Positions 22,700-57,837 of a stretch of DNA of 58,246 nucleotides are shown here, piece by piece. Below the pieces are notes generated by a model. It made no database searches. It had not been told where the DNA came from and saw nothing but the letters and a program-made list of their open reading frames with translations. This DNA comes from a virus. The translations under genes were made by a program, and so were the position numbers. The DNA lies in IMG/VR virus record IMGVR_UViG_3300048586_000912, positions 1-58,246 of that record; one strand, 5' to 3'. Position 1 is the first letter of the stretch; each line of letters begins with the position of its first letter.

Positions 22700-22748
22700 G
22701 GTTCAGTACCTTGTTCCGGGCCTGCGGCCCGCCGATGGGTGAATAGGA

Positions 22749-25664: not shown

Positions 25665-25674
25665 GGATGGGGTC

Positions 25675-30411: not shown

Positions 30412-32373
30412 TCAGTCCCCCGCCGCGCCATAGCCGAAGGGGGTGTGAGAGGGGCCGAATTCGGCCCGGATGCGCACGCCGCTGTAATAGGAGACCGAGG
30501 CCTTGCCCTTCTCGATGCCGAACTGGTCGGCCGCCTTGGGCATGCGCCGGTTGAAGGTGGACTTGCCGAGCGGCGTCAGGCCGCTGCGCTCGCAATACTT
30601 GGCGAAGGCGGCATAGAGTTCGCCCGCCTCCACCGTGTCGTGCGGGTTGCGGGTCAGCTCCAGCGCCGCGCGCACGAAGGCGCCCACCACGTCGCTCTCG
30701 TCGCGATATTCCTGCGTCGCCGCCAGGATCTTCTCCGGCGGGTCGAGCGCGCCGCGCCCGAGATAGTCGAGCGCGCCGTCGATCATCCAGTTGAGGATGC
30801 CCGGCATCTCGGCCTGCAATTTCTTCGGCAGCGCCTTGTCGCGCTCGCCTTCAGGAATCTGCACCTCGAACGGCACCAGGATCACACGGCGCCAGATGCC
30901 GTCGTCATTGCCATAGATGCGGGGCTTGCGGTTGCACGAGATCACCAGCTTGAAGAACGGATAGACCTCGATGAATTCGTGGTGCAGCCGGCGCACATTG
31001 ATGGGCTCGGAGCCGGTCACGTCCTTGATGAAGCTTTCGTCCAGCGGCAGCCCCTCCTTCGGCTCGGCCGAGCGCACGAAGCGCGCCGCCGGCAGGCGGA
31101 TGAGGTCGGGCGTCGCCTCCGAGCCCTTTCGGTTCTGGTCGGAAACGATGCTCATCACCGGCACGGTGGTGGCATAGTCGCCCATGACGCGGGCGATGAT
31201 GTCCACCAGCGTGGATTTCCCGTTCTTCCCTTCGCCATAGAAAATGCAGAAGGCCTGCTCGCCCGTGAGCGCGGTGAGGCAATAGCCGAACCAGCGCTGG
31301 AGGAAGGCCCGCACCTCCGGATCGGGCACGCAGCGCTCCAGGAAGGCCATGAACCGCGGCGCCTTCGCCTCTGGGCAGTGGAAGGCCGGCGCGCGCTTCG
31401 TCATCAGGTCGCCGCGCGCATGGGGGCGGATGGAATAGCGCCACACCGTGCGCAGCCGCACCGCCTCTGGGTCGGGGCATTCCGGGTCCGGCTCCTCGCT
31501 CTTCTCGAAGCGCAGCGTGCCGTTGGCGAGACCGAGGGCCAGAGGGTCGGCATCGAGCGCCGAAAGCGGCTGGGCGAGATAGGGCCGCGCCTCGCCCAAC
31601 ATGCCGTCGAGCTTGCCGGAATTGCCGGAAGAGGTGGCGAAGCGCCGCCGCTGCGCCTGGCGCGCCTGCAGGGCCTTCATGGCCAGAGCGCCGCGCGAGG
31701 TCACCTCCTTCAGTCGCGCCGCCTCGGTCTTGAGCACGTGCGCGCGCCGCCGGCGTTCGGTCTTGCTGATGTCCTCGTCATCGAGGGCGATGATGTCGTG
31801 CGGGATCTCGCGCAGCCGTGCCAACGCCTCCTCCGCGTCGCCCACCGCCTCCCGCTCGCGCGGGGTCAGTTCCAGCACATAGGCCTCGAGGGCGATCGCC
31901 TCAGCGGTCGGGTGGGCGAAGCGGCGCACCACGTCCTCGTCATTGTCCGGCCGGAACCAGCGCGTGGCGTCCCAATAGTGCCAACCGAGGTTGGGCACGA
32001 AGAGAATGTCGGCGCCGTGGCGCAGCCGCAGCCGGCGCGAATTGCCGATGTCGTTCATGGGCTCGCGCGCGCAGGCGGCCAGCGTGCCATCGCCCGGGTC
32101 GAAGCCCTCCGGCGGCGGCTCCAGATCTTCCAGCGGCGCATCATCCGGCGGTTCATCATCGCCGCCACGCTCCATGCTCCCCTCCGGCGGATCCTCGCGC
32201 GCGGGGGAAGCCGGGGGCCGAAGGTCGCTCTCCCAATCGTCGTCATTCGCCGCGGCCGGCGGAAACGCGGCAGCCGGAGGCGCGGCCGCGCCCTCCCCGC
32301 GCACCAGAGCGGCGATGCGCTCCTCGGGCGAGAGGTCGGGCGGGGCGGCCGGCTTTTCGGCGGGGTCGGTCAC
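30412..32373 (-). CDS. D5/P4-type primase-helicase
   Basis: 653 residues. The first 105 are proline/acid-rich and disordered. The D5_N region follows, then an SF3-like AAA+ helicase: Walker A GEGKNGKSTL around residue 390, Walker B-like VSFVRSAEPKEG-type RFVRSAEPKEGLPLDESF, and sensor PFFKLVISCNRKPRI with EIWRRV-like GIWRRVILVPFEV. It unwinds DNA at the phage origin. Its ATG overlaps the methyltransferase stop. Confidence 0.9.
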   Translation of the reverse strand: MTDPAEKPAAPPDLSPEERIAALVRGEGAAAPPAAAFPPAAANDDDWESDLRPPASPAREDPPEGSMERGGDDEPPDDAPLEDLEPPPEGFDPGDGTLAACAREPMNDIGNSRRLRLRHGADILFVPNLGWHYWDATRWFRPDNDEDVVRRFAHPTAEAIALEAYVLELTPREREAVGDAEEALARLREIPHDIIALDDEDISKTERRRRAHVLKTEAARLKEVTSRGALAMKALQARQAQRRRFATSSGNSGKLDGMLGEARPYLAQPLSALDADPLALGLANGTLRFEKSEEPDPECPDPEAVRLRTVWRYSIRPHARGDLMTKRAPAFHCPEAKAPRFMAFLERCVPDPEVRAFLQRWFGYCLTALTGEQAFCIFYGEGKNGKSTLVDIIARVMGDYATTVPVMSIVSDQNRKGSEATPDLIRLPAARFVRSAEPKEGLPLDESFIKDVTGSEPINVRRLHHEFIEVYPFFKLVISCNRKPRIYGNDDGIWRRVILVPFEVQIPEGERDKALPKKLQAEMPGILNWMIDGALDYLGRGALDPPEKILAATQEYRDESDVVGAFVRAALELTRNPHDTVEAGELYAAFAKYCERSGLTPLGKSTFNRRMPKAADQFGIEKGKASVSYYSGVRIRAEFGPSHTPFGYGAAGD

Positions 32374-34220
32374 TCGGCGGCCTCCCTGAATTCCCCGGCC
32401 GCGCGGCGCCTGGGCGCGGCATCGGCCATCAGCGCGCCGACGCAGGCGCGCATCTTCGCCACCGAGACGGCATTGCCGATCTGCTTGATCTGCTCCGTCT
32501 TCGTGCCCGCGAACTCGTAGGTGGCCTCCTCGCTGTTGAAGCCCATGGCCGCCGCCAGCTCGTGCGGCTCCAGCATGCGGAAGAGGATGTCGAACTGCCG
32601 CCCCTCTACCGCCACGGGCTCCACCAGGTTGACGCGGCCGGTGGCGCAGATGGTGGGCGCCGGCTCGGCGATATCGTGCACGCGCGGCGCCTGGCCTTCG
32701 CGCTCGCCGAACTGCGCGGCGATGAAGGCGAGCTCGCCGCGATTGGCTCCGGTCACGGTCGGCAACGGCTCGCCGGCATCGCGCACGCGGTCGCTGCCGT
32801 CATGGTGCGTCACCGGCATGACAATGGCGAATTCCCCGCCCTTAGCCGTGGTGAGGGTCGGGATCGGCTCGGCCACGTCGCGCGGGCCCGGGCCGCCGCC
32901 GGATTGCGTCACCGGCACCACCATGCCGAACCGCGCCTTTGCGGTGCAGGTGGGCAGCGGCTCCTGGGCCGAGACACAGGTCTCGCCGGAGCCGGAGCCG
33001 TAATAAGGCGAGATGAGCGCGTGCGCCGCGCCGTTGCCGCCCGTGGTCGCCGTGGGGATCGGGTCCGCGACGGAACGCGGCGCGCCGCCGGAGGCCTGGG
33101 AAAGCACGAAGGGCTGCACCAGCAGCCGGGCGCAGCCGGGGTGAACCTCGGTTGCAGCGCCGCCCGTCGTGATGGTGGGCAAAGGCTCCCGCGCCGAGCG
33201 CGCCGCCCCACTGTTATGCTGGGAAAGCACCAGCGGCTCGGCACAATACAGGTGCGGTGCATGCGCGGTCTGCGTGGGTAAAGGCTCCAAAGCGCTGGAA
33301 GCGGTGGACTGCCCCTTCATGTTGACAATGACCGGCTCGGCCAGCCCGATATGCTGCCCGCCGGCCGCGATGGTCGGCAGCGGCGCGTCGAGGCCTTGTG
33401 CCGCCATGTGGTTGCGCAGCACGACCAGGAACGGCTCTGGCCAGCCGAACTTGACGGCGCCGGCATGGATGCGCGCCAGCGTCTTCGGCGCTAAGGGCTT
33501 CGGCCGGTCGAAGATGGAGCGCCCCTTGATGGACCAGTCGATGATCTCCCGCGCCGGCCGCCAGGGCTGCGCGCCCGCAAAGAGGTCGCCAGCGATCGCC
33601 TCACGCTTCCTGTGCGTCGGCATGGGCCAGCGCACCTTGCGCCCATCCGAGCGCGCCATGAGGATGAAGCGCGAGCGCGTGGTCGCGTCGCCATAGTCGG
33701 CGGCGTTGAGCTTGCGCCATTCCGGCTCGAAGCCGAGGCGCTTCAGGGTCTCGATCCAGGCGTGGAAGTACTCCCCCTTGCGCGAGGCGATGGGCCGCCC
33801 GCTCCTCGGGTCCACCGGCCCCCAGCCGATGAATTCCCAAACATTTTCAATGATCAGCCGCTTCACCCGCAGCTCGGTGAGCCAGGTGATGATGTGCCAC
33901 GGGTCGGAGCGCTGCTGGTCGCTGGTCGGCTTGCCGCCCCGCGCCACCGAATGGTGGGTGCAGGTGGGCGAGGCCATGAGCAGGTCCAGATAGCCCTCCG
34001 GCACCAGCAGATGCGGGCGCACGGTGGCGATGTCCTGGACATAATGCCGGGCCGCGGGATGGTTGCGGCTGTGCGTATCGATCGCCACCGGCCAATGGTT
34101 CACGCAGGTGAGCACGATGTCGGCGGGCGCGAACCCGAGCCCCACCAGCGCCTTGATGGCGCCCGTGCTCGAGCCCCCGGCCCCGCAGAGCAGGTCGGCG
34201 ATGAGGATCTTGCGGCTCAT
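32370..34220 (-). CDS. C5-cytosine DNA methyltransferase with eight target-region repeats
   Basis: 616 residues. Motif I is LIADLLCGAGGSSTGA, the catalytic-cysteine motif is ASPTCTHHS around residue 84, ENVWEF is the ENV motif near 125, and TRSRFILMAR the QxR-type motif. From about residue 279 to 545 lie eight repeats of 31-41 residues, each opening with E-P-L-P-T-x-T or a variant. C-terminal GFNSEEATYEFAGTKTEQIKQIGNAVSV closes the fold. It probably protects phage DNA from restriction. The ATG at 34220 has GAGAGGG before it. Confidence 0.88.
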   Translation of the reverse strand: MSRKILIADLLCGAGGSSTGAIKALVGLGFAPADIVLTCVNHWPVAIDTHSRNHPAARHYVQDIATVRPHLLVPEGYLDLLMASPTCTHHSVARGGKPTSDQQRSDPWHIITWLTELRVKRLIIENVWEFIGWGPVDPRSGRPIASRKGEYFHAWIETLKRLGFEPEWRKLNAADYGDATTRSRFILMARSDGRKVRWPMPTHRKREAIAGDLFAGAQPWRPAREIIDWSIKGRSIFDRPKPLAPKTLARIHAGAVKFGWPEPFLVVLRNHMAAQGLDAPLPTIAAGGQHIGLAEPVIVNMKGQSTASSALEPLPTQTAHAPHLYCAEPLVLSQHNSGAARSAREPLPTITTGGAATEVHPGCARLLVQPFVLSQASGGAPRSVADPIPTATTGGNGAAHALISPYYGSGSGETCVSAQEPLPTCTAKARFGMVVPVTQSGGGPGPRDVAEPIPTLTTAKGGEFAIVMPVTHHDGSDRVRDAGEPLPTVTGANRGELAFIAAQFGEREGQAPRVHDIAEPAPTICATGRVNLVEPVAVEGRQFDILFRMLEPHELAAAMGFNSEEATYEFAGTKTEQIKQIGNAVSVAKMRACVGALMADAAPRRRAAGEFREAAE

Positions 34221-34267
34221 GCCACCCTCTCGACAACTTGAGCGCGAGCAGGCAGGCTCGAAGAACG

Positions 34268-35002
34268 ATGGCACGACGATATGAGATACTGCTGGCGGTC
34301 GCGGTGGGAGCAGCCGGAGGCATTTCGGCGTCTGCCGCTGTTATTTGGACAAGCCGCGTACACGACGCGGCCTGGGTATCCCTCATGGGTTCGATTTTTG
34401 GTGGCTTCGTAGGGGGTGTTACGACCCTCGTTGCCGCGTGGATTGCGTGGCGCGGCATCAAAGCTCAGATGCTCGAACAAAAGAGAGCAATGGCATTTCC
34501 GTTTCGCGTACGGGAGTATGAAGCAATCTGCGAACGCCTCCCAGGAACGCAGAACATCATGCTTTTTTCGAACGTAATACTCAATTTGTTTGGAGATGAA
34601 ACGAAAACACATAATGAAATTCGTCAAACTATTTTCTCCTTTTTCGCAAAGAAAAAATTGTCCGAGAGCGAAATTCGATCGTTTCAGATACGGAAATTCA
34701 TCGAAGATCGATGCAGAAACACAAATGTCCTTTTGCAGAATCAATTCATATCCGCACTGGAATTTGTTCAACAAACTGCTGAGATACCGGTTGAGTATGC
34801 GCGCAGCATCCATGCAGATGACGTGATAAAGGAGCAAATTGAAAGTCGCATTTCGAACAATACTGAACAATGCCAATTCGCTATGAAGCGGCTCAGGTCG
34901 GCATGCACTCACATTGCCGAAAGTGCGGATCGTGACGAGCGCCGAAGTCGTGCGCTCAAAAATGAGATCGATGCCGTCCTCGGCGACCCCGCCATAGATT
35001 AA
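34268..35002 (+). CDS. Two-pass membrane protein with cytoplasmic helical domain, moron candidate
   Basis: 244 residues encoded against the direction of the whole surrounding operon. Two membrane segments occupy about residues 8-26 (LAVAVGAAGGISASAAVIW) and 38-57 (VSLMGSIFGGFVGGVTTLVA), followed by a helical, Lys/Asn/Phe-rich domain (IRQTIFSFFAKKKLSESEIR). Base composition from 34500 to 34900 is far less GC-rich than its neighbours, indicating separate origin. The stop lies two bases from the convergent methyltransferase stop. Such independent membrane-protein genes often give lysogens superinfection exclusion; that role is inference. Confidence 0.75.
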   Translation: MARRYEILLAVAVGAAGGISASAAVIWTSRVHDAAWVSLMGSIFGGFVGGVTTLVAAWIAWRGIKAQMLEQKRAMAFPFRVREYEAICERLPGTQNIMLFSNVILNLFGDETKTHNEIRQTIFSFFAKKKLSESEIRSFQIRKFIEDRCRNTNVLLQNQFISALEFVQQTAEIPVEYARSIHADDVIKEQIESRISNNTEQCQFAMKRLRSACTHIAESADRDERRSRALKNEIDAVLGDPAID

Positions 35003-35004
35003 CA

Positions 35005-36516
35005 TCACTCCGCCGCCTCCCCTGCTTCGTCTGCGCCGAACAGCGGCAGCGGTGCGGTCTGAGCGCCGCGCGCCTTCGCTGCCTCTCGCTTGCGGGTGGC
35101 GGGGCCGGCGAGGCACAGGTCCATGCGGCGGCGAATGTCCGCCTGATACTCGGCCTCGCGCTCGATCAGCACGGCCGAGAACCCCTCGCGCCACGCCGCC
35201 TCGCCCGTAGTGCCGGTGCCCGCGAACGGGTCCAGCACCGTGCCGCCGGGCGGCGTCACAAGGCGGCAGAGCCACTGCATCAGATCCACCGGCTTGACAG
35301 TGGGGTGCTTGGAGCCGAGGCGGTCTTCCGCATCGGCTTTGGACGAATAGAAGAAGCGGGCGGCGGAGCCGCCGGAATCGGCATGGCCGCGCGAGACCCA
35401 ATCGCCTGCGGATTTCCCCATGGACGAGCTGGCATTATGTGCCGCAGCCGAATTGCGACGCTCCCCGCCCGATGAGGCCGCGGCTTCAGGAAACGCCCCC
35501 ACCACCTCCGGCGAGCCGTCGTGCAGCACGTTCGCAGGCCAGCGACCGAGGCCGGTGTCTCCAACGGCGCGGGAGCCGCCGAGGCCGGAACCAAACGTGT
35601 TGCGGTTTTGGTCGACGGAGGGGTTGGCCCGAGACACGCGCCGTGGCCGGGCGCCTTCGGTTTCAACCCGGCACCCATCGATATTGAGTGCCCCCGTCCC
35701 ATGCGCGAGCACATTGGCCGCCACGGTGCCGTCCAGCGGCTTGCGCGCGAGAATGATCGGCTCCCAAGCTGGTTTGACTGCCGTTCCCCAGCCCTGCCAA
35801 GTGGCGGCTTCAGGCGAGCCGGGCACATAGTCCCCCGGCTGATACTTGCGGTCGGCCAGCTTTTCCCATGAGCCATCCTTGTGCTGGTCGGCACCGGGCC
35901 GGATGCGCCGAACGGGTGCGCCGGTCGGCACCACTTCGCCTTCGACACCGAGGGCCTTGTCGATCCCCTTCGCCAGGTCGTGGCTCTTGGGGAAGCCCGA
36001 GCCGTAGACCCACGCCAGCAGCCCCTCGAAGCCGAGCAGGTCCATCACCCGCAGGAAGGCGGAAAGCTGGGCATCCGAAAGCGAGTTGACGAAATCGCGG
36101 ATGATGGGGTCGCGGCTCATCAGCTCCAGCAGCGTGTCGCGCACCTCGAAGCCGGCATCCTCGATCGCGGATTTCAGCCGATGGTCGGTGCGCGTGCCGC
36201 CGAAAGCCACGACGTGGCCGCCCGGCTTGAGCACCCGCAGCACCTCGGCCCAAAACTCGGCCGCGAACGCGGTCTCGCCGGTGTCCCACTGCTTCCCCAT
36301 GAAACCCGCCGAGGCGCGGGCATAGAGCCCGTCGCGCCCGTGCTGCGCCGGCGCCGCATCGGCCGCGCCGAAGCGCTTGCGGATGGAGACGAGCGCATAG
36401 GGCGGGTCCGTGACGACCGCATGGATGCTCGCGTCCGGCAGCGCGCGCAGCACCTCGCGGCTGTCGCCGCAATGGAGTGCCACCCGCCCGCCGAGGAATA
36501 GTTCGGGCGCGCTCAT
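35005..36516 (-). CDS. Site-specific N4-cytosine/N6-adenine DNA methyltransferase
   Basis: 503 residues of the beta-type order: DPPY catalytic motif near residue 38 (VVTDPPYALV) and the AdoMet-binding FAGTGTTGEAAW motif near the C-terminus, preceded by KHPTVKPVDLMQWLCRLV. A long central insert (RDPIIRDFVNSLSDAQLSAF, then SGFPKSHDLAKGIDKALG) is the presumed target recognition region. Together with the C5 enzyme it likely masks phage DNA from host restriction. Confidence 0.9.
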   Translation of the reverse strand: MSAPELFLGGRVALHCGDSREVLRALPDASIHAVVTDPPYALVSIRKRFGAADAAPAQHGRDGLYARASAGFMGKQWDTGETAFAAEFWAEVLRVLKPGGHVVAFGGTRTDHRLKSAIEDAGFEVRDTLLELMSRDPIIRDFVNSLSDAQLSAFLRVMDLLGFEGLLAWVYGSGFPKSHDLAKGIDKALGVEGEVVPTGAPVRRIRPGADQHKDGSWEKLADRKYQPGDYVPGSPEAATWQGWGTAVKPAWEPIILARKPLDGTVAANVLAHGTGALNIDGCRVETEGARPRRVSRANPSVDQNRNTFGSGLGGSRAVGDTGLGRWPANVLHDGSPEVVGAFPEAAASSGGERRNSAAAHNASSSMGKSAGDWVSRGHADSGGSAARFFYSSKADAEDRLGSKHPTVKPVDLMQWLCRLVTPPGGTVLDPFAGTGTTGEAAWREGFSAVLIEREAEYQADIRRRMDLCLAGPATRKREAAKARGAQTAPLPLFGADEAGEAAE

Positions 36517-37067
36517 GCCGCCCGCGCCTCGGCCTGCGCCCCGTTTGAATTCAGCGTGTTACACTCGATGTTTCCCGTGGAACCTGCCGCGCCCGCGCGC
36601 GTGCCCGCCTCGGGTGCCGTGAAGTCGGTGGGGTGGCGGCCCATGAGGGCGCAGATGCGCAGGGTGCTGGTCACGTCCACCGCGTCGCCGTGCTCGGCCC
36701 GGCACCAGGTGGCCACCGAAACGCCCGCCGCCCGCGCCGCATCCCGCATGGCCTGCTCGGCTGCCGAGCGGTAGAGCATCATCGCCGCCGCGAAGAACCA
36801 CCACAGGAATGGCCCGCGCGGGGAAAGCGGCAGGCGCCCCGGCAGCGGCGCGGAGAGCGGGCGCAGCGTCACGGCATCGAGGCCGCGCACCGCGCAGGTG
36901 GCGAGCCAGCAATCGAGCCGCACCGGCCGGCCCGCCCGCAGGGCCCCGAAGATGCGCCCGGCCGTGAGCGGCGCGATACCCGCCATGGCCTTGATGCGGT
37001 CCATCTCCGGATGGGTGAGCGGCTGCGCCGCCAGAACAGCGCCGAGGCGCTCATGGATAGTGCGCAT
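36513..37067 (-). CDS. DNA-binding regulator with two HTH-like segments
   Basis: 184 residues. Two similar helical stretches occur: PEMDRIKAMAGIAPLTAGRIFGALRAG at about 19-45 and AMRDAARAAGVSVATWCRAE at about 107-126, the second followed by TSTLRICALMGRHPTDF as in XRE-type proteins. The tail is disordered. It is coupled to gcrA by TGATG and to the methyltransferase by ATGA, so a role in early-gene control is plausible. Family not identified. Confidence 0.6.
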   Translation of the reverse strand: MRTIHERLGAVLAAQPLTHPEMDRIKAMAGIAPLTAGRIFGALRAGRPVRLDCWLATCAVRGLDAVTLRPLSAPLPGRLPLSPRGPFLWWFFAAAMMLYRSAAEQAMRDAARAAGVSVATWCRAEHGDAVDVTSTLRICALMGRHPTDFTAPEAGTRAGAAGSTGNIECNTLNSNGAQAEARAA

Positions 37068-37716
37068 CACGCGGCCTCCCCGATCTCGTCCAGCATGTCG
37101 CCGGTGCGTTCGGCCCGTGCCTCGTCCGGGCGGCGGGCGCGGCGCGCCACCTCGTGCGGCGCCCGCACGGGGCGCAGCGCCCGCGGCTCGTAGGCGAGCC
37201 GGCAGCAAGCGGGGCAATAGGAGAGCCCCGGCGCGGCCGGCGCGCCGCAGACCCTGAGCGCCAGCCCCCCCCCGCCACCGGCCACCGGCAGGCATCGCGG
37301 CCAACGGCGGTGAAGAGCACGCCTCCGGCCGGCCCGGCGGGCGGTGCCTTTTCCACCCCGTCATGCTCCGGCTTGACCGGAGCATCCATGCCCGCTCCCG
37401 GCATTGCGCCCGGCCGCAGGATGGGCCCTCCGGTCAAGCCGGAGGGCGACGGCGGGGAAGCGTCAGCGGCGCGCGCGAGTCCCGAACCGCCGTCATGCTC
37501 CGGCTTGGCCGGGGCGCTCGCGCGGACGGCCGCATAGCGCGTCTCGTTGCCGCGCAATTGCAGGCCTATGCGCATGCACTTGCCGATCACGGCATTGCGG
37601 CTCGCGAAATGCCCGGCCGCGCACATGGCGGCGGCGATCGCGGACGCGGGTTGCCCGTCCTCGGCCAGCCGGCGCAGCATCTTCTCGGCCTTCGGATCGT
37701 CCCACACGCTGCTCAT
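37067..37716 (-). pseudogene. gcrA: GcrA-family cell-cycle regulator, disrupted by a homopolymer frameshift
   Basis: The N-terminus (SSVWDDPKAEKMLRRLAEDG; SRNAVIGKCMRIGLQL) is the GcrA DNA-binding domain, which in Alphaproteobacteria joins sigma70-RNA polymerase at GANTC-methylated promoters. CRWPV marks the C-terminal region, but in frame the sequence then becomes unrelated. Reading resumes in the other frame as LALRVCGAPAAPGLSYCPAC and ends at 37067, where the stop overlaps the next ATG. The switch is at a run of nine C (37265-37273); ten would restore the frame. About 55 codons of palindromic repeat DNA lie between the two domains. It may be an error, a true mutation or slippage-controlled. 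Confidence 0.75.
37360..37516. repeat. Alphaproteobacterial-type palindromes inserted in gcrA
   Basis: Three hairpins: TGCTCCGG-CTTGA-CCGGAGCA (37364-37384), CCCTCCGG-TCAAG-CCGGAGGG (37426-37446), and a degenerate TGCTCCGG-CTTGG-CCGGGGCG (37496-37516), the first and third each preceded by CGTCA. They resemble the paired extragenic palindromes common in alphaproteobacterial genomes. Here they are translated, giving a linker with the peptide KPEHDG twice. Confidence 0.8.
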
Positions 37717-38969
37717 GCCGCCGCTCCCATGGGATGGCTCGCGCGCGCGGGCGGCGCGAGCATATCGTTGAAGTCCTTGCCAGCCGGCGCCCAGATGGTG
37801 CGCACCAGGCGGCCGGGGGCGGCGTGGCGGGCCTCGGCGCGCCGCATTGCCATCTGCGTCAGGAACGGTTCCGAATCCCCGTCGCCGAGCAGCAGCAGCT
37901 CGCGCACGCTGTCCTCCACCGGCATGGCGAGGCTCTCGAAATCGGGCGTCGGGCCGGGCACGCGCACCTGCATCAGGCGGCCGGCCTTGTCCGGGCGGCG
38001 CAGGGTCGGGTGCACGATGGTCTCGGCCGCCTTGCCGGCGAGATTGCCCAGGTCGATGCCGGCGGCGAACACGTCGCCGGGCTCATCGGCGCCGAGGCGC
38101 CGCAGCGCCGTCCACACCGAGAGCACGGTCTCGATGCCCTCGCCGGCCACCATCCGCGCCGGGCCGGCCTCTGCGGGTTGGCCGGCGGCGCAGAGCCCGG
38201 CCCGCACGAGCAGGATCCGGCCGCCCTGCTTGGAACCGCGCGCCTTGCGCGCCGGCAGCACTTCGCCGGTCTCGGGATCGGCCAGCACCGCCTTGCCGTC
38301 CGCGGCGGCGAGGTCGAGCCAGGTGAAATGCAGGCCGCGGAAATGCCCGTCCGCGCCGGTGATGGCCGCGAGCATGGCCGGCCCGCGATGGATGATGCGC
38401 GGGCGCGTCTCGCCGCGCCCGTCTGCCTCGCGGCCGTGGAAATAGGGCGCGGCAGGCAGGAAGCGCAGCGCCGTGCCGGGCGGCAGCGCGAGCCCGTTGC
38501 GCCGGTCCAGATAGGCCGCGACCATGGGATGGCGCGGCATGGCCTGCCGCCACATGGCATAGAGCGCGCGGCGCTCCTTCTCGCGGAAGAAGGAGGCGGA
38601 CTTCTCGCTCTTCTCCTGCTCTGCCGTGCGCTGCGCCGCGCGCGCGGCGAGCTCCTCCGGCGAGAGGCGGTGCCCCTCCCCCTTCGGCGGCGGCGCTCCG
38701 GTCAGCGTCTCGCAGGCGGCGAGGAAATCGGCGCCGTCGAGATGCATGACGAGGCCGATCACGTCGCCGCCCACGCCGCAGTGCCGGCAGTTCCACAAAT
38801 TCTTGCGCGTGTTAAGCCCGAACCGATCGCTGCCGCCGCACACCGGGCACGGCCCCACCATCTCGGAGCCCGCCTTGCGCAGCCGAATGCCGCGCCGCCC
38901 CACCTCCTGCGCCACGGAGTTGGCGCGGGCCTCGGACACCCAATCGGCGAAGGCGAGGTCGCGGGTCAT
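37713..38969 (-). CDS. DNA primase with CHC2 zinc finger and Toprim domain
   Basis: 418 residues. The zinc finger is CPVCGGSDRF ... NLWNCRHCGVGGDVIGLV (residues about 42-75), placed as in CHC2 primases. A Toprim core begins at MVAGEGIETVLSVWTAL and continues to ELLLLGDGDSEPFLT. Between the strand ILLVRA and MVAGEG lies AGLCAAGQPAEAGPAR, encoded by a family H hairpin. It would prime phage DNA synthesis alongside the D5 helicase. Start at 38969 overlaps the DUF4326 stop. Confidence 0.88.
   Translation of the reverse strand: MTRDLAFADWVSEARANSVAQEVGRRGIRLRKAGSEMVGPCPVCGGSDRFGLNTRKNLWNCRHCGVGGDVIGLVMHLDGADFLAACETLTGAPPPKGEGHRLSPEELAARAAQRTAEQEKSEKSASFFREKERRALYAMWRQAMPRHPMVAAYLDRRNGLALPPGTALRFLPAAPYFHGREADGRGETRPRIIHRGPAMLAAITGADGHFRGLHFTWLDLAAADGKAVLADPETGEVLPARKARGSKQGGRILLVRAGLCAAGQPAEAGPARMVAGEGIETVLSVWTALRRLGADEPGDVFAAGIDLGNLAGKAAETIVHPTLRRPDKAGRLMQVRVPGPTPDFESLAMPVEDSVRELLLLGDGDSEPFLTQMAMRRAEARHAAPGRLVRTIWAPAGKDFNDMLAPPARASHPMGAAA
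38160..38204 (+). repeat. Family H hairpin, copy 6 (inside the primase gene)
   Basis: Arms 38160-38174 and 38190-38204 pair with one mismatch around the consensus loop GGGTTGGCCGGCGGC. The arms contain CTCTGC / GCAGAG, unlike any other copy. It is read in frame through the Toprim region of the primase. Confidence 0.85.
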
Positions 38970-39376
38970 GGCACCGCCTCGCAGACCGGCCGGTTGGCAA
39001 TCTCCAGCAGCACGTCGGCATGGCAGGGCGCGCCGCGGGCGCACCAGCAGGCAAGGTTCTTGCCAGCGAGGAAGCGACGGATGCTGCGCTGGTTGACGTG
39101 GATGAGATCGTCGTAGCCGCCCGAGACTTCGATCACGTCATCATTGGTGCACAGGTAAGTAGTCCGGTTGGGGTCCCAATCAACAGCATTGCGGAACGCC
39201 TCAACGCAGTCTTCAGCAGTCAGGCAGGGCCTATACTCATTTGTTGACCGATCCAGCATCTTTTCGCCGACGCGCCAAGAATTGCCCCAACGGGTCGACC
39301 GGTCGACCTTCACCGTGTTCTCCGGCATGCGCCAGCCCTTGGCGCGGGAAAGCTGGATGCGGCGGGGGGCGTCCAT
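38966..39376 (-). CDS. DUF4326 family protein
   Basis: 136 residues. RRIQLSRAKGWRMPENTVKVDRSTRWGN at the start and LAGKNLACWCARGAPCHADVLLE at the end are the DUF4326 signature, with a conserved cluster of Cys and His (CWC ... PCHAD). The family is frequent in phages and actinobacterial or alphaproteobacterial genomes and has no assigned activity. Codon use in the middle (YRPCLTAEDCVEAFRNAVDWDPNRTTYL) is less GC-biased than its neighbours. Confidence 0.85.
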   Translation of the reverse strand: MDAPRRIQLSRAKGWRMPENTVKVDRSTRWGNSWRVGEKMLDRSTNEYRPCLTAEDCVEAFRNAVDWDPNRTTYLCTNDDVIEVSGGYDDLIHVNQRSIRRFLAGKNLACWCARGAPCHADVLLEIANRPVCEAVP

Positions 39377-40911: not shown

Positions 40912-41487
40912 TCACGGCGGCGGGCGTTCCCTCCGCGGCACGATCGGTTCGGGATGCAAGCTGGACGGGAGGTCGGGATGGTCGAGCGGGTGGGGCTCAA
41001 CGTGGGGCAGGCCGGCTACCAGGCCTGCCTCCTGGTGGTGATCGCCAAGATGGCCCGGCGCATCGCCACCCACGATTCCGGCGGCCACGCCTTCCTCGGC
41101 TTCGTGCGGCACCACCTCATCGCCGGCGCCGCCGCCCAGCACCAGGCGGATGCGCCCATCCAGGCCGAGTTCCAGCTTCTCGCCGACCTCGTCCGCGACG
41201 CGGCGCGCGAGCCAGGGCCCGAGCGCCTCCGACGGCAAGGTGGCGGCGCCGATCAGAAGGGCGCGCGTGTGCAGCCGCGCCGCCGTGACGATGTCGAGAA
41301 GCAGTGAGGCGTCCACATGCTCCAGCATGAGATCGAGCGGCACGTGCAGCACCAAGGCGCCCTCGCGCACCTCGAAGCGGGCGACGGCGGCAAGGTCCGC
41401 CAATTCGACGAGCGCGAAGTCGCGCTCCGCCTGCGAGAGGGAGGTGCCGAGCCGCGGCCGCTCCGAGATGTTGCGCACCGCGCTCAT
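40912..41487 (-). CDS. Leftward protein of unknown function, overlaps an antisense gene
   Basis: 191 residues. The N-terminal 115 (SAVRNISERPRLGTSLSQAE; ASLLLDIVTAARLHTRALLI) look protein-like; the last 70, rich in His, Pro and Asp, look like the complement of a gene on the other strand. GAGGAATCGGC precedes the ATG, and the start overlaps an upstream minus-strand stop as ATGA. Both strands are open here and I cannot decide how far each is used. Confidence 0.4.
   Translation of the reverse strand: MSAVRNISERPRLGTSLSQAERDFALVELADLAAVARFEVREGALVLHVPLDLMLEHVDASLLLDIVTAARLHTRALLIGAATLPSEALGPWLARRVADEVGEKLELGLDGRIRLVLGGGAGDEVVPHEAEEGVAAGIVGGDAPGHLGDHHQEAGLVAGLPHVEPHPLDHPDLPSSLHPEPIVPRRERPPP
40978..41307 (+). 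CDS. Rightward protein of unknown function, overlaps an antisense gene
   Basis: 109 residues, starting MVERVGLNVGQAGYQACLLVV after GGAGG at five bases. The first 75 residues are plausible (HAFLGFVRHHLIAGAAAQHQ); the last 30 look like the complement of the opposite-strand gene. It is the mirror image of the doubt about the minus-strand gene at 40912-41487. Confidence 0.35.
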   Translation: MVERVGLNVGQAGYQACLLVVIAKMARRIATHDSGGHAFLGFVRHHLIAGAAAQHQADAPIQAEFQLLADLVRDAAREPGPERLRRQGGGADQKGARVQPRRRDDVEKQ

Positions 41488-55675: not shown

Positions 55676-55960
55676 ATGGCGCCCCGCTCCAACGCGCCGG
55701 CGCGCTTTCCCCCGGGCGGTTCCTGGCCCGCCGTGCTGCGGGCGGACATGGCTGCCGCGTATCTCGACTATCCAGACACACAGGCGCTCTCCCGCGCCGT
55801 GGTCGCAGGCGAGGCGCCGCCGCCCTCCTGCATGCGCAAGGCAGGCGCCAAGCGCGAGCCGGTCTGGGCGAAGGAGGTGCTCACGCAGTTTGTTGCGCGC
55901 GTGCACGCCGTGGCCAATGATAATGCCCCCGAAACCGAGAGCATCCGGGATCTCGTGTGA
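55676..55960 (+). CDS. Excisionase-like DNA-binding protein
   Basis: 94 residues. SWPAVLRADMAAAYLDYPDTQALSRAVVAG resembles the winged-helix start of excisionases, then REPVWAKEVLTQFVARVHAV. It lies directly before the integrase with GTGA overlap, the usual xis-int order. Confidence 0.6.
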   Translation: MAPRSNAPARFPPGGSWPAVLRADMAAAYLDYPDTQALSRAVVAGEAPPPSCMRKAGAKREPVWAKEVLTQFVARVHAVANDNAPETESIRDLV

Positions 55961-57204
55961 AGCCGCCGCGCACCACAATGCCTCTGCCCCGCTATGTGCG
56001 GCGCAAGCCCCTGCGCTCGGGCCAATGGGCCTATTTCTTCGAGGTCCCCACATGGGCGCGCAAGGCGGGCTGCCAGCTCGCCAACGAGGCGCTCGGCACC
56101 GACTATGCCGCCGCCGTGCGCCGGGCCGAGGACGTGTTGCTGCCACAGCTGGATTCCTGGCGCACCGGCGGGCTCTCGGATCTGCGGCCCATGGGCCCGA
56201 CGCTGGGCACGCTCGACTGGCTGATCGCCGAATACAAGGCGCACCGCACCTATTCCGAGCTCGGCCGGTGGACGAAGATGCGCCACGAGATCGGCTTCGA
56301 CCTGGTGGCGGGGCATGTGCTGAAGGACGGGCGCACGCTCGGCAGCGTGCCGCTCGCGGCGATCGAGACCGACATCGCCGACCGCGTCTATGACCGCCTC
56401 CTCCATGTGGAGGAAAGGGACGAGGCCACCGGCACGATTGTTCGCCGCGAGCGCCGTGCCACCGCCAACCACGCCATGAAATCCTGCCGCCGCGCATGGT
56501 TCGTGGTGGCGCGGCTGCACCCGAAGACCGTGCCGGCGCGCAACCCCTTTTCCAAGATGGGCCTCAAGGCGCAGGAGACAGCGACGCCCACCGCCACGCT
56601 GGACGAATTACGCGCCTTCGTGGCGGCCGCCGACCGCATGGGCCGGGCCTCGCTCGGCACCGCGGCCTGGATGGCCTGGGAATGGGCGCCGCGCGAGGAG
56701 GACGTGTTCGGCACCTTCGAGGCCGGGCACTACCGGCCGAAGGAACGGCCCGGTGCCGTCCGCGTCATCCACGAAAAAACGCGTGAGGAGGCGTGGATAC
56801 CGCTGTTCGACGACGACGGATCGGCGCTTTACCCCGAGCTGACGTCGCGCCTTGATGCGCTGCGCGCCGGCCGAATCGCCGGGCTCATGATCGTGCGCGA
56901 CTGGAAAGAGAAGGACCGCGAGGCGCCTGCCGCCTGGGTCACCGAAAGCGGCGACCTCACCTATATGCGTCACGAGGTGAAGCGCATCATCCGCGCCGCC
57001 GGCCTGCGCGACGAACTGAGCTTCCGCAGCTTCCGCCATGGCGGGATCACCGAGGCCGCCGACGCCGACGCCACCGACCGCGAGATCCAGGCCGTGACCC
57101 GCCACCGCTCGGCAAAGGTGCTGCCGCGCTACGCCAAGCGCACCATGACGCAGGTCTCGAACGTGGCCAGGAAGCGGCGGGCAAGCCGGGAGAAACTGGC
57201 GTGA
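55957..57204 (+). CDS. Tyrosine-family phage integrase
   Basis: 415 residues from a GTG at 55957 (ATG at 55978 is an alternative). The C-terminal catalytic domain shows SFRSFRHGGITEAAD (RHxxxxE region), TRHRSAKVLPRYAKRT (H/R and the nucleophilic Tyr) and WMAWEWAPREEDVFG for the first Arg region. Its orientation toward the tRNA-Arg gene matches site-specific insertion there. Confidence 0.9.
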   Translation: MKPPRTTMPLPRYVRRKPLRSGQWAYFFEVPTWARKAGCQLANEALGTDYAAAVRRAEDVLLPQLDSWRTGGLSDLRPMGPTLGTLDWLIAEYKAHRTYSELGRWTKMRHEIGFDLVAGHVLKDGRTLGSVPLAAIETDIADRVYDRLLHVEERDEATGTIVRRERRATANHAMKSCRRAWFVVARLHPKTVPARNPFSKMGLKAQETATPTATLDELRAFVAAADRMGRASLGTAAWMAWEWAPREEDVFGTFEAGHYRPKERPGAVRVIHEKTREEAWIPLFDDDGSALYPELTSRLDALRAGRIAGLMIVRDWKEKDREAPAAWVTESGDLTYMRHEVKRIIRAAGLRDELSFRSFRHGGITEAADADATDREIQAVTRHRSAKVLPRYAKRTMTQVSNVARKRRASREKLA

Positions 57205-57754: not shown

Positions 57755-57795
57755 AACCGCTGGCGACCCCGGCAGGGCTCGAACCTGCGACCTAG
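57755..57795. other. Prophage attachment site (right end) at the tRNA-Arg 3' end
   Basis: The gap between the last phage gene (57737) and the tRNA 3' end (57761) has no gene. Integration into a tRNA 3' half normally restores the tRNA, so the shared core should lie within about 57755-57795. The matching copy at the other prophage end is outside the window. Confidence 0.5.
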
Positions 57796-57837
57796 TGCTT
57801 AGAAGGCACTTGCTCTATCCAGCTGAGCTACGGGGCC
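57761..57837 (-). tRNA. tRNA-Arg (TCT)
   Basis: The cloverleaf folds with acceptor GGCCCCG / CGGGGTC, D-stem GCTC / GAGC, anticodon stem AGTGC / GCACT around CTTCTAA (anticodon TCT), T-stem GCAGG / CCTGC with TTCGAGC, discriminator G and an encoded CCA at 57763-57761. Its 3' end faces the integrase gene, so it is the attachment site of the prophage. Confidence 0.96.

Follow-up and report, generated by a model that had tools for sequence, protein, structure and literature searches.

Caulobacter GcrA (Pfam family PF07750; solved chains 5yix and 7ye1) is described in a review as consisting of a DNA-binding part (residues 1–45), an unstructured linker (residues 46–107) and a sigma-interacting domain (residues 108–173) (PMC7403470). 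Homologues within the GcrA family have also been reported in phiCbK-like phages (PMC3556154) and in phiLM21-like prophages of Sinorhizobium (PMC12429752). The gene analysed here lies in a stretch of viral DNA of 58,246 nucleotides (IMG/VR virus record IMGVR_UViG_3300048586_000912; hereafter the window). Like those of the phiCbK-like and phiLM21-like viruses, it is a phage or prophage member of the family, and it keeps the order of the Caulobacter protein, with a DNA-binding N-terminal part, a variable linker and a cysteine-containing, sigma-interacting C-terminal module. It differs from Caulobacter GcrA in being phage-borne, in having a linker drawn from a dispersed repeat and in being frameshifted in the record. 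Against the equivalog model for cellular GcrA (NCBIfam NF050816, cut-off 280 bits) it scores 26.7 bits, and its two intact relatives also fall short at 49.2 bits (the metagenome virus L002) and 29.7 bits. The window gene contains both a repeat-derived linker and a homopolymer tract, neither of which is mentioned for the phiCbK-like or phiLM21-like proteins in the available text of PMC3556154 and PMC12429752. Palindromic repeats translated in frame inside protein genes are known as Rickettsia palindromic elements (RPE), as outlined in a review (PMC10969869).

The prophage and its operon

The window most likely represents an integrated prophage in a Xanthobacter-like host, closest to Xanthobacter. 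This assignment follows from an integrase gene (55957–57204) adjoining a tRNA-Arg gene (57761–57837), and from the flank past this tRNA, whose match to X. tagetidis is 88% and which is found to some degree in each of the 14 genomes of the genus. The gcrA-like gene is a phage gene, a prophage paralogue rather than the host's own gcrA, and X. tagetidis has a separate gcrA of its own besides the copy in its prophage. A previous inspection of the window (the sequence-only reading) had labelled the gene a cell-cycle regulator; the label calls for caution, the gene being a prophage paralogue.

The features of the region are collected in Table 1. The start of the primase gene was taken as the ATG at 38969, a longer ORF with a GTG start beginning at 39044, and no Pfam or PHROG family match was found for the small gene downstream of gcrA. 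Five junctions were checked. Neighbouring genes overlap by 4 bases (ATGA) at three of them and are separated by 3 bases at another, and the fifth, at the end of the gcrA-like gene, is a 1-base TGATG overlap. The stop of the C-terminal frame does overlap the next ATG, as had been claimed, but the added statement that it does so exactly like every other junction is too loose. Two DNA methyltransferase genes are found in the region, one of the N6/N4 type (Table 1) and one of the cytosine-5 type (32370–34274). Their proximity to a prophage gcrA recalls the host pair of GcrA and CcrM; the N6/N4 enzyme scores 58.2 bits against the CcrM equivalog NF050803, far under the cut-off of 830 bits.

Table 1. 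Features in and around the gcrA-like gene of the window.
Feature	Position	Strand	Remarks
gcrA-like prophage gene, extent inferred from intact relatives	37067..37716	-	N-terminal part, REP linker and sigma-interacting C-terminal module; frameshifted in the record
Frame-0 ORF open in the record, 221 aa	37051..37716	-	ATG at 37716; N-terminal part, linker, CRWPV and out-of-frame tail
N-terminal GcrA-type DNA-binding part	37516..37716	-	
Palindromic REP/BIME-like dispersed host-type repeat forming the in-frame linker	37354..37515	-	palindrome cores at 37368, 37430 and 37500
Nine-G run of the gene strand (nine C on the strand shown)	37265..37273	-	relatives: GGGGGAGGGG
C-terminal part past the tract in the conserved frame, 65 codons + TGA	37067..37264	-	counterpart of the relatives' GcrA sigma-interacting domain
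Upstream primase gene (DnaG zinc ribbon, Toprim)	37713..38969	-	overlaps gcrA by 4 bases
Downstream small gene, 184 aa	36513..37067	-	start overlaps the C-frame stop (TGATG)
N6/N4 DNA methyltransferase gene of the same operon	35005..36516	-	weak CcrM match

The frame break and the intact relatives

The N-terminal part of the window gene matches PF07750 with 32.5 bits (cut-off 26.9 bits; 58.9 bits for an intact relative), confirming the GcrA N-terminus recognised in the sequence-only reading. The C-terminal module of L002 matches the solved GcrA chains 7ye1 and 5yix, and its N-terminal part matches 5yiu weakly (E = 0.058). Both parts lie in a single frame in the two intact relatives and are divided between frames in the window record, so we file the window gene as a frameshifted relative rather than as a working GcrA. 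The CRWPV motif is still found in frame 0 and the CGAPAAPGLSYCPAC segment is not, so the tract splits the C-terminal module itself. The frame of this segment ends with a TGA at 37069–37067, which shares one base with the next ATG, and the two frames meet at the nine G. A GcrA homologue split at nine C, with its C-terminal segment in another frame and a shortfall of one base, is thus present in the DNA as originally described.

The tract is the only homopolymer of at least eight bases in the 58 kb window. A first-order Markov model predicts about 1.1 G/C runs of at least nine bases, with one observed, and 15.8 of at least seven, with two observed, so the run by itself does not exceed the chance expectation. 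The feature that does go beyond chance is that the two halves of one protein family join exactly at this run.

The same two relatives were recovered in three protein scans of viral contigs, and one of them in a scan of genome contigs. The match in the genome of X. tagetidis ATCC 700314 shares 10,261 identical bases with the viral record 2894340795, and the two count as one sequence, so that the comparison of close relatives rests on two independent relatives in the collections searched. The gene is intact in both, encoding 227 aa in the metagenome virus (L002) and 292 aa in the X. tagetidis prophage (L003), and has the same TGATG end. At the site of the window's nine G both relatives carry a ten-base stretch that is interrupted by A (Table 1). 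Because this is the case in 2/2 independent relatives, the pure homopolymer tract is, as judged from these sequences, not conserved.

The wider family search matched 203 of 296 genomes, nearly all of them weakly and, by their sequence, through the cells' own GcrA-type genes; the sole strong match was X. tagetidis. We also inspected GcrA-type C-terminal modules between their first two cysteines, using 24 rows drawn from 24 loci (no row from L016 and two from L017); three of the rows are chance pattern matches (the second of L017, L020 and L021). A G/C run of at least six bases was found in 0/24 of these rows, and one row contained a run of six T. When viral contigs were scanned for a pattern covering the context of the tract, 16 contigs were returned, among which the only GcrA genes were those of the two known relatives; no GcrA motif was found around the match in the other 14. 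Searches of phage and plasmid records hit, among the matches listed, mainly the methyltransferase and in no case a gcrA locus.

In both relatives gcrA is separated from the next gene by an antisense insert (L002:3687–4286, minus strand, and the same place in L003), which the window lacks. The products encoded by the insert of L002 are a HigA-family antitoxin (107.6 bits) and a weakly matched partner (16.2 bits). In the X. tagetidis prophage, the insert downstream of gcrA contains runs of seven and eight G one base apart (L055:10492–10507).

Readings of the nine-base tract

In the conserved frame, comparison of the C-terminal part past the tract with L002 gives 7 synonymous and 4 nonsynonymous changes (dN/dS 0.22) and comparison with L003 gives 12 and 3 (dN/dS 0.10), and in the other two frames dN/dS is at least 1.1. 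This pattern indicates that the C-terminal part is under purifying selection in its proper frame. The changes private to the window comprise 4 synonymous and 3 nonsynonymous ones, for which neutrality is not rejected (P = 0.10). After application of a clean-flank filter, which rejected 50 further gap sites out of 57 gap entries, isolated frame-changing indels occur at three sites, 22737, 25667 and the tract, across the 30,851 window bases aligned at 85% or above. The indel at 22737 lies between two ORFs and that at 25667 just past the terminase stop, so that the tract is the only one inside a gene. Among the 34 G/C runs of at least five bases in the aligned parts, the tract alone differs in length; the 33 unchanged runs, mostly of 5–6 bases, serve as controls for what is the single longest run, and they argue against a generally homopolymer-prone assembly. 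Together these tests speak more for a real event of recent date than for an assembly that is error-prone in general, and leave room for a miscall at the longest run.

We consider it likely that the window copy either carries a singleton frameshift of recent origin or reflects a miscalled tract. The two relatives have an intact gene without a pure run, and the window copy accordingly looks like a one-off broken or mis-read gene and not like an evolved on/off switch. The intact gene would encode a prophage GcrA-like sigma cofactor in which a linker joins the DNA-binding part to the sigma-interacting module, and in which the tract presumably had the state seen in the relatives, G5-A-G4 with a GAG codon in its middle. 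In the window lineage the A may have been lost, or may have changed to G before the pure run lost one base, either of which would leave nine G. Translation would then depart from the conserved frame at the tract and give the DNA-binding part and the linker followed by a tail unrelated to GcrA. As the shift is placed near the start of the sigma-interacting domain, the product would lack almost the whole of this domain. It might at best still bind DNA but should neither engage sigma nor activate transcription, which would amount to a loss of function.

Within this explanation we lean slightly towards a real mutation. The other form, in which base calling or assembly fell short at the tract and the real prophage carries an intact gene, is possible but somewhat doubtful. 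It would suit the position of the shortfall at the longest homopolymer of the window, the evolution of the C-terminal part as if expressed in its proper frame and the preserved stop–start overlap, and, according to a survey of frameshifted genes, sequencing errors are expected to account for one class of singletons (PMC3711429). It sits less well with the constant length of the other runs (0/33 differ) and with the lack of any other isolated in-gene frameshift in the aligned bases, and it would also require a prior A-to-G change, since the tract of the relatives is interrupted.

A contingency locus, in which slippage of the G run would switch the phage regulator on and off reversibly, is improbable. 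The nine-G run does lie within the coding part, where the frame switches with a one-base change in length, and the start of the downstream gene is near either stop; in its nine-base run within a coding region, the window resembles the contingency loci described for Neisseria, Bordetella and Campylobacter. Unlike those loci, its tract is not conserved in relatives, being interrupted in both of the close ones, and a single length is seen, with no variation. The other C-terminal modules examined have no G/C run of at least six bases at the tract position, and the genes usually switched are, going by the survey cited above, of a surface or modification type to which this one does not belong (PMC3711429). 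The sequence-only reading had offered a switch, a decayed gene or an error as the three ways to understand the locus; a recent mutation or a miscall is left, and the switch finds no support. If the ordinary explanation is right, the case is a reminder that a frameshift at a homopolymer in a single record should be compared with relatives before being read as a switch.

The heptamer G GGG GGG would be expected to be slippery, and a −1 ribosomal shift on its in-frame copy, or slippage of the polymerase, would allow some full-length protein and hence two products. Frame 0 reads G GGG GGG GGC, from which a −1 step enters the conserved frame, and purifying selection on the C-terminal part would agree with its being translated. 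We nonetheless regard this as very unlikely, the RNA structure downstream being ordinary (z −0.55) and the relatives lacking the heptamer and needing no shift, which argues against an evolved frameshift programme shared by the family; the locus was not classed as a programmed −1 frameshift gene on the same two grounds. Neither switching nor ribosomal rescue thus finds positive support. That the gene is an old pseudogene, long since broken and in decay, is extremely unlikely, because although the conserved frame is open from the start codon only as far as the tract, the C-terminal part has no further stop or indel and evolves conservatively (dN/dS 0.10–0.22) and the operon overlaps are intact.

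A palindromic repeat as linker

The linker repeat matches dispersed copies in 14/14 genomes of the genus, among the matches listed mostly via the linker stretch. Of its matches, 67 are in X. tagetidis, including a few within the prophage's own operon. It contains three palindrome cores and is read in frame in the window, L002 and L003, with L002 differing in the first half. Twenty chromosomal repeat loci were hand-picked from the match list, 18 from X. tagetidis and 2 from another genome, and flanks that both have coding-type composition in the same frame were, judged by eye, seen at 0/20. Its many dispersed palindromic copies, mostly intergenic by their appearance, place the repeat among elements of the REP/BIME type.

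The linker and C-terminal part of the X. tagetidis gene (L003) are 91% identical to those of the window, but the sequence from its start codon to the palindrome does not align with the N-terminal part of the window gene and has a weak GcrA match of 20.2 bits, below the cut-off. Two phage-type loci with the gene in the same operon place (L017 and L018) have no such repeat in their linkers, according to their printed translations. We tentatively suggest that host palindromic repeats in the linker of a phage sigma cofactor might act as interchangeable joints, by which DNA-binding parts could be swapped onto a constant sigma-binding module; the X. tagetidis gene would represent one swap and the nine-base tract a separate, incidental off-allele. 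With one clear swap in hand, we put this forward as a lead and not as a result. The repeat linker and the unrelated N-terminal part that meets it at the palindrome in X. tagetidis are of more interest than the homopolymer.

Like the RPE, as these are reviewed in PMC10969869, the window repeat is palindromic and translated in frame within a protein gene. It differs from them in the repeat and host concerned, in forming one 162-base unit in the linker of a phage gene, and in that the 20 sampled chromosomal copies look intergenic. A search for in-frame linker use of repetitive extragenic palindromic repeats in phage gave no related match among the PMC papers covered. If the repeats do serve as joints, they would offer phages a simple route to retarget a host-type sigma cofactor, and would be a case of a translated palindromic repeat outside the Rickettsia elements covered by that review. 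A small ORF of the X. tagetidis prophage (L055:6432–7100) also contains an in-frame half palindrome near its start, and the window stretch at about 40930–41376 is homologous to it only over the later part.
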